Below, piece by piece: positions 25,471 to 51,172 of a stretch of DNA of 64,000 nt. The notes beneath the pieces are model-generated. The model saw only the letters and a program-made list of their open reading frames with translations, was not told the origin of the DNA and searched no databases. Position 1 is the first letter of the stretch; each line of letters begins with the position of its first letter. This DNA comes from Sistotremastrum niveocremeum HHB9708 (Eukaryota > Basidiomycota > Agaricomycetes > Sistotremastrales > Sistotremastraceae), in assembly GCA_001630475.1 (NCBI GenBank), contig KV419396.1, forward strand, positions 744,001 to 808,000. Reading direction: 5' to 3'. A program made the position numbers and the translations under genes.

Positions 25471-28400
25471 TTAAACAGGAGTCCCTATTCTAGAGGACCA
25501 AGTATCAGTGGAATCGCCCAAAAGATAATCTACCAGCCCATTGTGTTCCACAGTCACGACTTGACCACGGTCATTGGACGGAACGGGGACGTTTTCGATG
25601 TGAGTATCTGTTCGCAAGCCATTTCTGGCCAAAAACATATCGACAAGGAGCCGACACTCGTCTGCACTCTTGGCCCTTTCAAGGAGCTTAGGCAGTTCGT
25701 TAAATGGTGGCATTGGCGGCTGAACTCTGCTAATACTGCGCGACGGAGCCTGCCGGATGGGCGAGGATTTTTCTCCTCGATGATCAACCGACACAGTAGT
25801 GCTGCTTCTGGCAGAAGGCGATACTGGTGACGGTTCCGGAATCTCGATCGGGTGTGAAGGCATCTCGACTATAGCTACCGGGCGCTTCGGGAATGCTGCA
25901 GAGCGAGGACTGCTTGCCGCCGATTTTGTAGACAATGGAGATGGTTGTACATAAGTGGGATCAACGACTGTTTCGCTCATTGAATGATCAGACGATACAG
26001 GTTTTCGAGCGAGAGAGGCGGTTCGAGGTGAGGGTACAATCATAGGAGGGTCTGCAGGAGCGGGAGCAGAACGGAGCGGTGGTGGTATCTGGGTAGAAGT
26101 CTGATAGATGGAGGACGAAGGGGATAAAGCAGGAGGCCGGGGAGGGCGAGGGAAATTCTGCAGATTTGAAACCGAACGCTTGCCATTCAAAGTTTGCCTG
26201 GGAGGACCGTTCAGAGAGCGTGAAAAGGTATCATCTTCGCTGGGTCGTGCAGAGGCGAGACGTTCTGAGGATCCGCGGCTCGTCAGCCTGGACACCATGG
26301 AACGGAAACGTCCGCCGGACTTGCGAGGTTCCGGTAGAGAAGAGTTATTGATGGAAGGCGCTTCGGGAGGACCATCGGCGAGAAAGTCCATCAAGTCTCT
26401 GGCGTTGCTTGAAACTGCCATAGCAGGCTTGGGAGTCAGGGACGATTTGATAACAGGTTCCTCGCTGTCAGAGCCATTCATAATGTCATCTAAATCCAGC
26501 GATTCTCTGTTGCGGGAGGGCTTCCTAGACTGTAGTTGTGGGCCGGGACCAGCTTGCATTCCCATTTGAGCTAATTTATTATTTGTGGGCATCGGAGGAT
26601 CTAGAGGGTAGAACGTTCAATAGAGCGATCGAGGTCAGAAAAAAAAATCACGAACGGAATTGAGGTTGCGGCGCTTGTGATGAACCTTCAGTACGAGATC
26701 GAGGGCGTGAAACGGGAGGCCTGTTCGGCGAAGGGATTGTAGGAAATGCCTGCGCGCCCTGGGCCATGGGCTGCTGCTGCTGCTGAGCAGACACCAAAGG
26801 ACCTCCCGGAGGTGGTCTTGAACTAGGTCCTCGATTGACTGGGGACTCTTCTTCATCTTCGTCGATAGAATCCACTGGATTCCGGACAATTCTGGTGTTG
26901 GACACGGTGCGAGAAACCGGCGCGGCAGGCTTGCGTTCTCCCTGACCAGGCCTTTCGGGACTCGCCACGTTTTCTTTCGGGGTCGCCGTTGTGTCTGCGG
27001 CAGGAGGCGGCACACGACCTAAGCGGTTCCCTCGCTTACTAGCGACCTACAAACCATGGTCAAAATCGGTCTATGGGGATGCACGAGCACCTACATCGAA
27101 AGATCTGAGTCTGTCAGGGGTCAATGATACTTTCATCGTCGTGCCAGACTTCATCAAATCATCAAAGTCTTGGATACTGTCGTCGTCCTAATGTCATAGT
27201 GGTGAGCAAGAGAAACGCCAAATCATGCTAAAAAACTCCGACCATGTCGTCAAGAATTGAACTCGCCCCATTAGCTTCAATGTGTGCGGAATATTTGCGT
27301 GAAGCTTCGCTCATCTGAGAATTAGTTCTCTTGTGAAGGGGAAGTGGTTGGTCAGTCGTTTCTTCACTAGATTCTCCATTTCCATTTCCATTCCCATTCT
27401 TGATCATCTTAATGGCTCTAGCCTTCTCGGAGGAATTTTTCGAGGAAGACGGAGAACTCGAATGGCCACTCTGCTTTGACGTTCGACCGTCCGCAGGGAC
27501 ATTGGACGGTACTGGCGAACCAGTACGGGAAGATGGTCGCGACTCCTCACTTGCTCGAGAAAACGATTTACTTCTGCGCGGATGCATGGCATTAGCCTGG
27601 GCGACGATTTGCTCTTGGACTGGAGGCATCGCGGACACTGAGTTTGGGAGTCAGGATAAATATTCAAGGAACACACCTTTCATCACTTTGAACAACCCAT
27701 AAATACTCTCGTCTTCACACAGCGCAACATACAAATCATGGACATGTGCTATGGTCCGACTGCTATCCCGGGCGACTACACGACCGACATTTGCTAATAT
27801 GTGCCTGAAGCGGCGTTTCAGTGTGATTCGGAGAAGCGGTCATGGAACTTACTGGCAGACCGATCTGTCAAAGACAAAATCAGCCCAGGAAAAATGGCGG
27901 TACCACTCGCACTCACTCTAGGATAGCAGTTAAATATAACGCGGCCGGAGCGATTGAAGATGTTCTTGGAGAAGCTGCACCCCCAGCATGAGCCATGCGA
28001 ACCTGCAACCGTGCCTCTGCTTCGTTGTCTTCATCCACGTCGTTGAGAGTGGCATAGGCCTCGCATTTGAGCCTGAGCAACTAACGTGGGAAGGGTCAGG
28101 AATACGTTTCTGAGCAGGAAAAACAGACGCACCTCAAAAGCTGGCTGCAATGGGAAGTCGTGGATGGTTTGCTCGTCTGTTGGCTGAGGAGAAGTGGGCT
28201 GAGTCCGCTCCCAATAAGCTCTGAGCTCCAATTCTGCCTCCAGAAGAGCTTCCTTCCCCAGGGGTGTTGGTAAAATTCTTAAAAGACCACTTTTAAGGCG
28301 TTGAGTGGCCAAGGAACGTGCAGAACTGATGATGAGCCATAGCAGCTCGTCTAAAAGAGCGTTGATGTACGAGAGAGCGTCTGTTTTCAGTCTAGTCGGC

Positions 28401-28521
28401 CGGATTTCGGACAGGATTACATCCGCAGAGCGGGAGGAGAGATATACAGGGACTGAAGGCGAAGACATGAGAGTTGAGCGTAAGAAAAAGACAATTAGCA
28501 CTGACCGTGGTCGGTAGCCAT
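25471..28521 (-). CDS. Tandem histone-fold (SOS histone-domain-like) protein with long disordered tail
   Basis: At least ten exons from the ATG at 28521; the first five are 28506-28521, 28133-28452, 27917-28080, 27853-27864 and 27677-27804. Residues about 14-88 form an H2B-like fold (KTDALSYINALLDELLWLI ... LPTPLGKEALLEAELELR). Residues about 155-213 form an H2A-like fold (APAALYLTAILESVCQHIL, ARDSSRTIAHVHDLYVALC, EDESIYGLFK). From memory this pair most resembles the N-terminal histone doublet of SOS, but no RasGEF domain follows. Instead come about 650 mostly disordered residues rich in Ser, Pro and Arg, with conserved-looking islands DFDDLMKSGTTMKVSLTP, DLMDFLADGPPEAP and a C-terminal helix ERAKSADECRLLVDMFLAR. 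I know no named fungal family for it. Function is unknown; lipid or DNA binding are both open. Confidence 0.8.
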
Positions 28522-28978: not shown

Positions 28979-31900
28979 TCAATACTCAAGTGAGGAGGAC
29001 ATCCCGGAGAGGCTTCCCAACAGCGGGTCTGCAACTGACTCTTGCCGGTTTTGACCATGATCTTCATCAAGGTCGTTAATCAGATCCAAGCTGTCGACGT
29101 CATTTCCGGGGTGTCCAAGATCTTGTTCAAACGTCACGGCGCTCGAATGGATACCTCTGAGGAAGCGATAATCGGCTCCTGATCCAAAAAGACGAGTAAC
29201 AGGATCCTCAGCCGGGTCTTCGTCTTCGTCGACATCGAATGTCGCCGGGTCCGCAACGTTCATGCGGGCAAGTGGTGGTCGAGCAGGAGTAGAAAGGCGA
29301 GTTGGACTCGGACTGGCCTGCTCGAGGTGGCGACGAGACAGACGTTCCACCTGCCAATATTATTGAACAACACACGTTACTGAGTCTAGTGAAGCTACGT
29401 ACCACCATAGATACTTTGATCCGCCGTTCTTTTGATATCGGTTTCCGTCGGACCTCTCCTGCCACAGCGATGTGAACGGGTAAGTTCTCTGGGAGCGCTT
29501 CCAAATCTGGCTCTGGAGGAATGTATGGGATAGGATCTGGAAAGGGCCTAAGAACGCCATTTTTGTGACTCCGTTTTTGATGGTCTATGAGATCGGTAGC
29601 GGCAGCAAACGCTTGGTTGCAACCTATTTGATGGTGAACTCATATTTCATGACATGGCATTGCATTTTCACCTTGGTAGCAGCAGAATAGCCGTTCGCGG
29701 ATGTGTGTGCGGCAATGTATAGACAATTTTTGAACGGTTCTGAAACTCAAGTGACAACCCTGCCAGTGACAGCTATACGACCCCTGCGCTTGTGTTACAA
29801 CTTATGCAGGACGATCGAAGGGAAGACCATACAAGAGAATTGAGACTGTCGCCTAGATGATTCTTTGACACATGTCGAAACAGTCTGTCACCAGAGTCGA
29901 GAGTTCTCTGGCATCCTTCCCATTTGCAGATGACCAGCCTTGCACGTCGCAGCGAATCCTCAGTGGCATTGCGCTCATTCGTGACTTGTTCTATTCAAGA
30001 TAGGTGGGCTTAGCCTTACGAAATGTAATTACAGGACCGCACCAGCATAACGAGCATCCTCTTCTGCAGGCGACGTCAGACTCCGACATAAATCCCGGTT
30101 CCGGAGTAAAGACTAACCAGCTTTTTCCAGCGCCCGCATTTCTCTCTTAGTCGACAATCTGTACCCTGGAGGAAGCGATGGGACGAATATATAGAATGGC
30201 TGTGATGGAGGGCTCTCAGGTAACGCAGATTGAGCCTCAAGCCCGGCGTGGCTCTGTACTGAGCCTTGGTCCGTCTGAAAAGGAGTGTCGTCTGGAGGAT
30301 TCGAGAAATGCGAACGACCGCCCGGAGATTCCGGAGAATTGAGGAAAAGAGGCACCGTGGTCTCTGAGCTCGATTGCAGAGTAGCAATTGGGGGGCTATC
30401 CGGCAATTTACTGGTGGACGCTACGGGTTGAGGTGGATCAATGGGCGCCCTCACCACTGGAGCAGAGAGCGGTTGCTTCACTGGATTAACGGCAGCTGCA
30501 GGAACGGGAGCGGAGTCAGCAGTGACATCAATGCGGCGTTTCTTTCTCTTTCTGGGTGTCTCAGTGTCACTGATCCCGTCCTCTATTAAAGCTTGGATAG
30601 CCAATTGAGCAATGTCATCCTCCGGCGCAACTTTAGATTTACGCGGACTTTTCTTAGCCGGTTTCGCTTTCGGGGCAGCTGTTGCAGCAGGGAGGGGAGC
30701 TGTTAGGGGAGCTGAAGAAGTTGACGCTGCCGTGCGCTGGTTGGGTAATTGACTGGGCGGCGTCACGTTTGATCTCATCGTCGACACCACTAATGGTGCA
30801 CGTGTTTGTCCATGTGATCCGCCATTGTGCGAAGCTTGAGGGATCTGATACCATGGAATCGATACCCCAGCTTGAGACGGGGGGACAGTAGGGCCAACGG
30901 CTTGAGAGACAGAGGCCGGAGCTTCATTGCTGGGAGCCGTAGCAGAAGGGAGAGAGGCAACACTCTGCGACTGTTGAGCATCCTTGGCAGGCTCACCAGT
31001 GCCCGTCGCAGGAGCGCTGAGGCTCGTCGGCACCGGCTGTGGCGGCGCCACATTGACGGGCTCTTTCTGGACAGTCTGGGTCGGTGGATCGATATTGCTC
31101 TGCGCAATTTCACTCGGTGCATCATCGTCGAGTGTTATAGGGGAGGCAGCGGTCCCGTTCGCCGGCAACTTCGAAGCAACACGCATCTGTACAACAGGAT
31201 TAAAATGGCTCATTGAACGGGGGAAATGACCGACCTGGGCAGTATCGGGCGCCTGACTCCCTGACGGAGGACCAAGAGCTCCTGTCAAACTACTTTCCGA
31301 GGTTATTTGACTTGATCCCGCAATCCATCCAGCATTCGAAGGACCTAAATCTATTGATAAGCACAGATCAATTCGAAAAGTTTGAACTTACGGTGGGCAG
31401 CATAGTCCGCACGATTTGCGATAACTGGAGTGGTGTTAGAACTGGGGGCTTGACTAGGCACAGGGACGGGAGCCTGAGTTTGGTGGTGGTGTGTTTGTGA
31501 GGTGGACTGAACAGCATTGTGATGCTGTTGGACATGTTGTGGTGCAATATTACTAGAGCGTTGGGGCGGTGGGTAATTCTGAACATTATTAGAGGCTACA
31601 GGTTGTGGTACCCGGTGGTGTCGGGCTATTATCTCTACTTCCTGCCGGATCATTTGAGAAGTAGGATAAGGGTATTGAAGCTGGACCTGCTGAGGTTGTT
31701 GAGACGTGCTGGGGCGATTCAGGAAGCCGTTAGGATGCGAATAGTATGGATTATATTGAGCTGGAGGGCGATTGGGCTGGTGATGAGGCTGTTGATGAGA
31801 CTGTTGATGAGGCTGAGGAGGTTGAGGGAGAGACTGTGGAGGAGGCTGCCGTGTGTGGTGTTGAGGGGGCTGCTGGCTGGTCTGCTGAATGGCTTGCTGA

Positions 31901-32525
31901 ACCGCCTGCTGAACAGGATGCGGCAACTGTTGCTGCATGCGGAGCCTGTGAAGGTGCTGGTTCTGACTCTGCTCCTGAGCCTGACGCTGATTATGATAAA
32001 ATGGCGACTGTTGGAAATTATGATTAGGCTCGTGAGGGCTTGCGACCGGGGAAGGGTGATCAGAACCGCGAGACTGTCGCGAAGAACGTCTCACAGGACC
32101 ATTGTGCCCTGGAATTTCTTCGATTCTCGCTGAAGGAACAGCATTGCGGGGAAGGGCCGAGGATGAAGCGACAGGCTGGGGTGCCTGGGGTGGAATTGGG
32201 ATCTGAACATTTGGTATATCGATGTGTTCGGGTACAGGTTGCCCCATTTCATGATAACTGATCAAACGCGTTAAGAGAAAGAAACTACCATCCAAATAGG
32301 AAGGGCTCACATTTTCTGGACCTGATGTCGATACAGAGCCTGCTCGTTCGCTATTCGAACTTGCAACAGCTTCTGTTGACCAACCTCCAAGTGTTGCTTC
32401 ATTTGCTCGTAGACATTCTGGTCGTATGCAACCTGATCTCCCCTATCCAATAATTCCTGAAGAGAGGGCACTGCATGCAAGATCTGCATAGCCCCATGGT
32501 GGGCGTTAGGTTGACCATTTTGCAT
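28979..32525 (-). CDS. Glutamine/proline-rich protein with three C-terminal C2H2 zinc fingers
   Basis: Multi-exon gene from the ATG at 32525. A helical, probably coiled-coil N-terminus (LQELLDRGDQVAYDQNVYEQ ... ALYRHQVQKIYHEM) leads to a Gln/His/Pro-rich stretch (codons between about 31700 and 31990), then disordered sequence with a KKSPRKSK basic patch and PRKRKKRRID nuclear signal. Three GLI-type fingers with four residues between the cysteines lie on separate exons: CKWEGC...H..H near 29870-29930, CHWQGCHLSFRTVQKLSIH near 29700-29780, and CCYQGCNQAFAAATDLIDH near 29565-29625. A Ser/acidic tail ends the protein. It is probably a DNA-binding transcription or chromatin factor; PacC/Rim101 and AEBP2 also carry three such fingers, but I cannot assign it to either. 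Confidence 0.78.
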
Positions 32526-32689
32526 GTCGAAGGCGACAAGTTTGAAAGCGCCTTCAGAGGCTTTCGAACCGATCGGAGTATGAATTGCAAGCTCAAGCTC
32601 TCGGAGATCCCTCTTTAGGTATCTCCGCGATTATCCGATGTCATCCGACCCGGAGTCAAATCATCTGCACTTGCATTCTATTCTTTTGC

Positions 32690-39200: not shown

Positions 39201-39998
39201 ACGCGGGATTCGGAAACCGAATAACGGACGCATTATCTTATCGCAGCGTTGACATTCCGAGCACTCGAATATTCACGATCGATTCCTCGGGAGAGGTCAA
39301 GACTGAGCTGCTGGAAAAGGCTGGTTATAAGTCATCGTGAGTATACACTGGCATAACTGCTCGAATAGATACTCATTGCCTATAGTTACACGCATATGTC
39401 GGATCTGGTGGATCAGCAATTCCCTCCTATCCATCGCAACTGGGTACCCGAGTTCACAGACTTCAGCTTCTGGAAGCAACCTATTCAAGAGTTTGAGTTG
39501 CCGGACCTTGGGCCCCCATCTCCTGCGCTGAGCGCTCGTTCCGATACTTCTGCTTTCACTCGCTTGCGAAACTTTGGAATCGGCCGTCAAACTAGCCGTA
39601 CCCCCGTCTTGGAAGAGCCCCGGCCGCGAAAGGATACGCCGTCTTCAAGCCCCATGAAACGATCAACAACGTCGAACGACTTGAAAGGGTCTTCATCGAC
39701 GCGTCCAATCGACATCCCCAGAGGTGACTCTGAGAGTGCCGATGAACGAGCCCTTCGACGTCTCAGTACAGGAAGCATTCCTGGGTCTTTACCCGACACA
39801 GGCTTTGCCATTACTTGGAGCCATTCTGATTATGGGTCCACGAGGGATTATAGGAACGACAACGATGTCTGGCTAGATGATGAAGAGGATGGCGACGATG
39901 ACGAAGAAGACGGAGATGAAGATTTGTCTGGTCCTGAAGAAGAGGATGATGAGATTGACGAGAGCTTGTTGGCAGAGATGAAGAATGTTCCATTTTAG
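36264..39998 (+). CDS. PAH1: Phosphatidate phosphatase (lipin; Pah1/Smp2)
   Basis: About a dozen exons from the ATG at 36264. The N-LIP domain is clear ([53 protein letters not shown]). A long disordered middle follows, then the lipin mid-region ([31 protein letters not shown]). The C-LIP/HAD catalytic domain carries DIDGT at 38797-38811, followed by [15 protein letters not shown] and [14 protein letters not shown], and [13 protein letters not shown]. The C-terminus is a highly acidic run. Pah1 dephosphorylates phosphatidic acid to diacylglycerol, controlling triacylglycerol and nuclear membrane growth, and is activated by Nem1-Spo7 dephosphorylation. The first intron (36465-36514) appears to have a GC donor. 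All exon joins keep frame. Confidence 0.93.
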
Positions 39999-49949: not shown

Positions 49950-51172
49950 ATGTCGTTCGCTCAACCTTTCCCTTTGGCCCAACCCCTTGCGGCTTCCAAG
50001 CCATCCTTCGGTCCAGATCTCGCTGTGCGACTTATCTGTCCTGATTGTCGGGATCCCAACCCCAATATTGTCGAGGAGTTTGGGAGTGGTGACTTAGTTT
50101 GTGGGACATGTGGATTGGTCTTGGGTGACAGGATCGTGGATACCAGAAGTGAATGTACGTCTTTCTTTGTATCTCTTTGTCTACCAGCAGCTGAGATTTT
50201 GTTTAGGGAGGGTATGTCCCATTGTCGTTTCACTACTTTCTCCTATCTGACCTTTCTCAGACATTCGCCAACGATGAGGGAGATGATCCGTCTCGTGTTG
50301 GAGCAGCTTCAGATCCGTTACTTGACGGTATCGAGCAACTGGACACCGTCATCAGTTTCCGAGATGGTGGATCTGGAATTGCAAAGGAGTTGCAGCGTGC
50401 CGCCTCCAGGTCTCAGACAGGGGGCCGCTCAGAACGAAATCTCCTCACCGCATTCCGCGAGATCTCCAACATGTGCGATCAGTTCTCTTTACCGAAGACG
50501 ATCAGTGATATTGCCAAGCAACTTTACAAACGAGCTGAAGAAGAAAAGCTTTTGCGCGGAAAGAGTCTGAATGCAGTCATCGCCGCATGCATATTCATCG
50601 CCTGCCGACAGGCACATGTACCTAGAACGTTCAAGGAAATATGCCATCTCACTCGGGTACCGAAGAAGACCATCGGACAGTGTTATAAAGCCATCGAGCA
50701 GGCGTTCAACCTTAGCCAGAAGTCGGAGGAGAAAACGGGCGGGAACGTTGCCACGCCAGGAACGGAACCGGAGGACCTTTTGGCCAGGTATTGCAATCAC
50801 CTCGACCTCCCTGCCAACTTCCAACGAGTTTGTGCCGACATCATTGGAGAGGCTCGAAAGGGCGGTATCGCAGCTGGGCGAAGCCCGGTCTCCATCGCTG
50901 GTGGCGCCATCTACTTTGTGTGCCATCTCCTCGGCAAGGCGAAGAGCTCGAAAGACATCTCCGGTGTTGCCGGTACCAGTGAGGGCACCATCAAACTCGT
51001 CTACCGACTGTATTACCAGGCCAGGAAAACTATTGTTCCTAAGGAAATTCTGGAATCTGGTAAGAACAGAAGATGACCAGACACCTTCACTAAACTCACA
51101 ATCATTGACTCTTTTTCAGGCAAGGCAGATCTTGCTCGACTTCCCGTAGACAACTCGAATTCTCACAAGTGA
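49950..51172 (+). CDS. SUA7: Transcription initiation factor TFIIB
   Basis: Four exons: 49950-50154, 50207-50211, 50261 to about 51060, and the last from about 51120. The N-terminal zinc ribbon (CPDC ... VCGTCGLVLGDRIVD) is followed by the B-reader (EWRTFANDEGDDPSRVG) and two cyclin repeats (AKQLYKRAEEEKLLRGKSLNAVIAAC-type helix start; later FQRVCADIIGEARKGGIAAGRSPVSIAGG). It recruits Pol II to TBP-bound promoters and helps set the start site. The second exon is only five nucleotides, GGAGG: it completes the Trp codon begun as T at 50154 and supplies Arg of the invariant EWRTF. Both flanking introns have ordinary ends (GTACGT...TTTAG, GTATGT...CTCAG). The C-terminus ARLPVDNSNSHK is added by the final exon. 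Confidence 0.95.

Follow-up and report, generated by a model that had tools for sequence, protein, structure and literature searches.

Proteins with two histone folds in a single polypeptide have been recorded as SOS (animals and Capsaspora), ABTB2, SPT3 and HSIH and in bacteria, archaea and viruses (Tables 1 and 2 of a 2026 review, PMC13088155), and SPT3 is the sole double histone fold that Table 1 of that review lists for Fungi; a fungal H2B–H2A doublet is not among the entries. Few such proteins are known beyond chromatin. The histone domain of SOS gates Ras activation and is a site of Noonan syndrome mutations; it carries a positively charged surface that interacts with anionic membranes, and Arg552 of SOS1 contacts Asp140 and Asp169 of the domain and is held there in the autoinhibited state (PMC3118925). 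Double folds of the SOS kind have not retained the electrostatic properties on which nucleic-acid binding depends, according to PMC13088155, and the SOS1 domain also docks the CSN3 subunit of the COP9 signalosome, as reported in PMC6328564. Here we describe a gene in a 64,000-nucleotide stretch of the fungus Sistotremastrum niveocremeum HHB9708 (contig KV419396.1, positions 744,001–808,000; the window), whose predicted product opens with an SOS-like H2B–H2A doublet and continues into a long tail. A fungal SOS-type doublet that lacks an exchange factor would reveal the activity of the module by itself, and the module could then prove to have arisen before fungi and animals diverged. Among the matches listed in searches of open-licence literature, we found no paper on a fungal H2B–H2A doublet.

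The five joined exons that encode the doublet (28521 to 27677, minus strand) specify 213 residues, which very probably constitute a double histone fold; two histone-fold sequences, HF1 and HF2, can be identified in the one polypeptide. When compared with shuffled sequences and with 990 six-frame open reading frames (ORFs) of at least 40 amino acids from the window, each half pairs only with its proper histone or SOS partner half. The exon-2 ORF ranks first of the 990 against both SOS1 1–100 (score 55, next 44) and the H2B core encoded by the same genome (60, next 43), and the exon-5 ORF ranks first against SOS1 95–180 by a small gap (40, next 37). Against H2A the unspliced exons are unremarkable, with the exon-3 ORF at 33 falling below unrelated ORFs that score 45 and 36; spliced HF2 reaches 57 against H2A and 65 against SOS1 95–180. 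The top unspliced ORF against H2A (39300–39644, minus strand) is unmatched in Pfam up to E 1, and we treated it as noise.

Of the double histone folds considered, SOS is probably the one closest to the doublet. Its whole-length score is highest with the SOS1 histone domain among the sequences compared. Aligned pairs are identical at 19 of 81 positions between HF1 and SOS1 and at 18 of 46 between HF2 and SOS1, the corresponding counts being 17 of 60 for HF1 with the genome's own H2B and 17 of 49 for HF2 with its own H2A. Relative to H2B, a gap of 9 residues here and 10 in SOS1 falls at overlapping sites, and the span between matched landmarks near the H2B L2 region is 37 residues here, 36 in SOS1 and 46 in H2B. 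Residues of the SOS1 histone-domain core (Leu55, Leu59, Val74, Phe78, Val133 and Ile137; positions from PMC3118925) were placed by hand on the pairwise alignments and correspond to L42, I47, L62, L66, I165 and V169, all of which are hydrophobic.

Profile and database searches give weaker evidence, in the same direction as the original prediction, which saw an H2B-like fold followed by an H2A-like fold resembling SOS, and the pairing, whole-length and gap comparisons likewise bear out that description. With the 213 residues as query, phmmer placed single-chain H2B–H2A fusions at the top of the PDB matches (best E 0.007; best 60 of 145 sequences up to E 10), and in five PDB alignments the H2A half holds most of the score, with the H2B half adding 3.5–6.5 bits in the right order. 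A profile built from the fungal protein and SOS1 matched two separate stretches in 16 of 60 rows (the best 60 of 255 PDB rows), these being H2B–H2A fusion chains; 7ybf was matched at E 8.9e-12, with the H2B half as its best stretch. SOS1 alone gave one stretch per row in the best 60 of 210 and matched 7ybf at E 2.6e-8. Aligned by hhalign with a profile of SOS1 and H2B–H2A, the fungal sequence gave a probability of 89% over residues 21–210, covering both halves, at an E-value of 2.2e-6 for that one comparison.

Several results weigh against a histone assignment. The single-sequence searches are marginal: the best PDB phmmer E-value is the 0.007 given above, two designed TIM barrels appear in the same search at E 0.35–0.38, and BLASTP with SOS1 1–194 gave E 0.002 with mainly the second half aligned. 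A genome search with SOS1 1–194 led to four places that do not include this gene, three of them H2A or H2A.Z genes as judged by their ORFs and the fourth overlapping a PF00125 match, and the 17 genome matches listed for PF00125 all fall elsewhere. A model of exon 2 alone was poor (predicted template-modelling score 0.31; helices at 12–21, 27–65 and 69–89), and its single Foldseek match was a non-histone at E 7.1; we regarded the model as too poor for comparison and used the helix pattern alone. Half of an obligate pseudodimer would not be expected to fold by itself. Finally, Pfam at E up to 10 has no match over all 882 amino acids of the full product. SOS1 1–194 is likewise unmatched at that threshold, while Pfam does match the genome's own H2A and H2B, and for this reason Pfam was dropped as a judge of the fold. 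The Pfam histone model as scanned thus misses doublets as divergent as the SOS1 histone domain. An unrelated helical domain with a chance resemblance to histones would fit the weak single-sequence E-values, the misses in the SOS1 and PF00125 genome searches and the poor exon-2 model. We regard this as very improbable, given that each half pairs specifically with its own histone counterpart and that the hhalign match spans both halves.

Comparison with the described families places the protein near SOS and outside it. The SOS1 histone domain (PDB 1Q9C and 3KSY) likewise begins with an H2B-like fold followed, in the one polypeptide, by an H2A-like fold; it also has the same shortening around H2B L2 and the same C-x-D ... 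F end of HF2. In SOS, however, DH, PH, REM and Cdc25 domains lie downstream, whereas no RasGEF, DH, PH, REM or Cdc25 domain was found in the 882 residues by Pfam at E up to 10, which returned no family at all for the product and upholds the claim that a RasGEF is missing. The genome does have RasGEF matches, but the 14 listed are all on contigs other than the one that carries the window (C3). The fungal doublet also differs in a longer linker between the folds, in its 669-residue tail, in an insertion of about 30 residues within HF2 and in the loss of the basic run KRKRR and of Asp140; the missing domains, basic run and Asp140 rule out identity with SOS itself. Each half is recognisable as H2B or H2A when set beside the genome's own histones, but the doublet is a single chain of net negative charge without the H2B L2 region, without basic histone tails and with the acidic patch partly lost. 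The charge difference detailed below and the absent L2 region speak against nucleosomal H2A/H2B. Sequence identity with the H2B, H2A and H2A.Z of this genome is 28–35%, which excludes the HSIH class, where at least 60% identity to nucleosomal histones is required. ABTB2/Cca3 of animals has ankyrin repeats and a BTB domain that Pfam does not match here, and this together with the whole-length scores rules out membership of that family. SPT3 of SAGA shares two histone folds in one chain and a fungal setting, but PF02269 (TFIID-18kDa type) is unmatched in the protein, and outside the doublet gene the genome has three listed PF02269 matches, at C3:725396-725690 and on contig C1; SPT3 membership is therefore ruled out as well. 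Those at C3:725396-725690 are exon matches of the SPT3/TAF13 type, on the contig of the window and some 18 kb to its left. At the level of sequence, the fungal protein is a double histone fold with an SOS-type N-terminal H2B-like/H2A-like arrangement and a short HF1; it resembles the SOS domain more than the others compared, and is not SOS.

The surfaces through which histones and SOS make their best-known contacts appear to be altered. Net charge is −7 for the doublet and −2 for SOS1 1–180, compared with +6 for each of the H2A and H2B cores encoded by the same genome. The doublet has no H2B L2 region, and in place of H2A loop 1 it has the insertion of about 30 residues (roughly 124–157), which has a net charge of −3, so that the DNA-holding surfaces seem to be gone. 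Given these losses, we consider it quite unlikely that the doublet binds chromatin or DNA, as has been suggested for ABTB2, or belongs to nucleosomes as an atypical subunit. The SOS1 basic run at 96–100 (KRKRR) aligns with AYWER, and no basic lipid-binding surface like that of SOS is apparent in the sequence. In the alignments Asp140 corresponds to H172 and Asp169 is kept as D202, leaving only one of the two acidic contacts of Arg552. The doublet could still act as a membrane sensor as in SOS, binding phosphatidic acid or PIP2 and anchoring the tail at the plasma membrane, because over its whole length it matches best the histone domain of SOS1, whose basic surface meets anionic membranes (PMC3118925). 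The replacement of KRKRR and the charge of −7 speak against this, and we judge it unlikely. Because the basic run and Asp140 are lost and the net charge is −7, nucleosomal, lipid-binding or exchange-factor-gating roles of the doublet are unlikely, and the mechanism of SOS should not be assumed for it.

The 669 residues beyond the doublet (214–882) are 15.7% Ser and 13.5% Pro, and a charge–hydropathy analysis that starts at residue 201 assigns 13 of its 16 scoring windows to the disordered side, several of them barely, in agreement with the long disordered tail that had been predicted to follow the doublet. The tail carries 16 of the 19 SP/TP sites of the protein and two of its three [RK]xxPxxP motifs. 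K[KR]x[KR], the sole nuclear-signal pattern tested, was not found. Hydrophobic islands in exon 7, at DLMDFLADGPP and at ELPKLLERAKSADECRLLVDMFLARNGL resemble binding motifs. Motifs like DLMDFLADGPP and SADECRLLVDMFL may occur in other uncharacterised fungal proteins as well, a point that we have not used as evidence.

The best explanation, to which we assign a probability of about 0.5, is that an SOS-type H2B–H2A pseudodimer serves as the docking head of a disordered cytoplasmic adaptor. Residues 1–213 would form a single-chain pseudodimer with a rigid helical surface, and this stable head would bind at least one protein partner through that surface. Further partners would be recruited by the tail, through its short motifs and phosphosites, so that the whole protein may act as an adaptor in the cytoplasm. 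Whether the doublet is such a docking head, and not a lipid or DNA binder, we put at even odds; the role is supported by the precedent of CSN3 binding by the SOS1 histone domain.

The likeness to SOS may reflect common ancestry. One reading, somewhat less probable than not, is that the SOS doublet predates SOS: a free-standing H2B–H2A pseudodimer, outside chromatin and carried by an adaptor protein, would have been present in the last ancestor shared by fungi and animals. Holozoa would later have joined it to a RasGEF, and the adaptor form would have persisted in fungi. Convergence is a serious possibility, a little short of even odds: fungal H2B and H2A genes could have fused independently and then lost the H2B L2 region and their charge on leaving chromatin. 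A separate origin would amount to convergence on the same loss of a DNA-binding loop. Either origin would offer a genetically tractable setting for testing the function of the doublet itself. Searches of viral contigs and prokaryote genome contigs confirmed no homologue, a result that is uninformative about eukaryotes. Within its own genome no paralogue of the doublet was found, the search having matched three of its own exons and, weakly, two further places (E 0.07 and 0.7). Up to E 0.01, the part of the tail that begins with exon 7 matched nothing but its own gene. The stronger of the two weak doublet matches (E 0.07), on contig C61, lies in a seemingly unrelated gene that may encode a P-loop NTPase, as judged by eye from 2,000 of its 3,177 bases.

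The transcript structure (Table 1) is inferred from reading frames and splice signals. Introns between exons 1 and 5 measure 53, 52, 52 and 48 nucleotides, and all eight introns of the model are 39–55 nucleotides long with GT donors and AG acceptors, a shortness in keeping with fungal DNA; the coordinates and five-exon joining first proposed for the doublet are correct, and the motifs quoted for it, LPTPLGKEALLEAE, YLTAILE (residues 161–167) and VALCEDESIYGLF (residues 197–209), are all present in the spliced product. Exon 4, of 12 nucleotides, yields YLTAILESVCQHILANVGRVVARD when spliced in, lining up with H2A alpha2, and is required for the H2A-like reading YLTAILESVCQHILA. Automatic annotation could easily overlook a micro-exon of this kind (27853-27864, minus strand), and the second histone fold would then be disrupted. 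In seven of the nine exons the model frame is the sole open sense frame (allowing for the terminal stop in exon 9), and exons 1 and 4 are so short that alternative frames also stay open. Ranked by codon score against the other two sense frames, it comes first in eight of nine exons, the exception being exon 4, whose score is poor; in exon 5 one antisense frame outscores it. A shorter model stops at 26648 after 508 amino acids, and addition of intron 8 and exon 9 extends it to 882. The product probably runs past 508 residues in this way. Two separate genes are the alternative, the next in-frame ATG being near 26592, but the spacing of about 55 nucleotides from the stop would be short for a gene boundary, and a single 882-residue gene is preferred on that account.

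Table 1. Predicted exons and notable segments of the doublet gene (window coordinates).
Feature	Position	Strand	Basis
Whole gene, 9 exons, 882 amino acids	25471..28521	-	splice model; stop codon at low end
Exon 1, start ATG, residues 1-5	28506..28521	-	splice model
Exon 2, first histone fold (HF1), H2B-like / SOS HF1-like, residues 6-112	28133..28452	-	
LPTPLGKEALLEAE, alphaC motif common to SOS and H2B, residues 66-79	28232..28273	-	alignments
Exon 3, H2A-like alpha1, loop-1 insertion, start of alpha2	27917..28080	-	splice model and alignments
Exon 4, 12-nucleotide micro-exon within alpha2 of H2A-like fold	27853..27864	-	
Exon 5, remainder of H2A-like fold (HILANVGRVVARD...VALCEDESIYGLF)	27677..27804	-	
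Exon 6, Ser-rich tail, predicted disordered	27243..27637	-	
Exon 7, acidic/hydrophobic island (DDDSIQDFDDLMKSGTTMKVSLTPDRLRSFD)	27095..27187	-	
Exon 8, Pro/Ser-rich tail	26656..27046	-	
Intron 8, 55 nucleotides, GTTCGT donor, CTGAC branch-like site, CTAG acceptor	26601..26655	-	sequence only
Exon 9, 1,130 nucleotides, last part of tail, islands DLMDFLADGPP and ELPKLLERAKSADECRLLVDMFLARNGL	25471..26600	-	

Upstream of the doublet gene, ORFs at 28979-32630 (minus strand), including long Gln/Pro/Ser-rich ones, may represent the next gene, and a C2H2-finger-like stretch lies at 29776-29994 (minus strand; Zap1_zf1, E 1e-5, below its cut-off). Elsewhere in the window, TFIIB repeats at 50207-51076 on the plus strand (PF00382, E 3.1e-42) mark an ordinary transcription factor gene.
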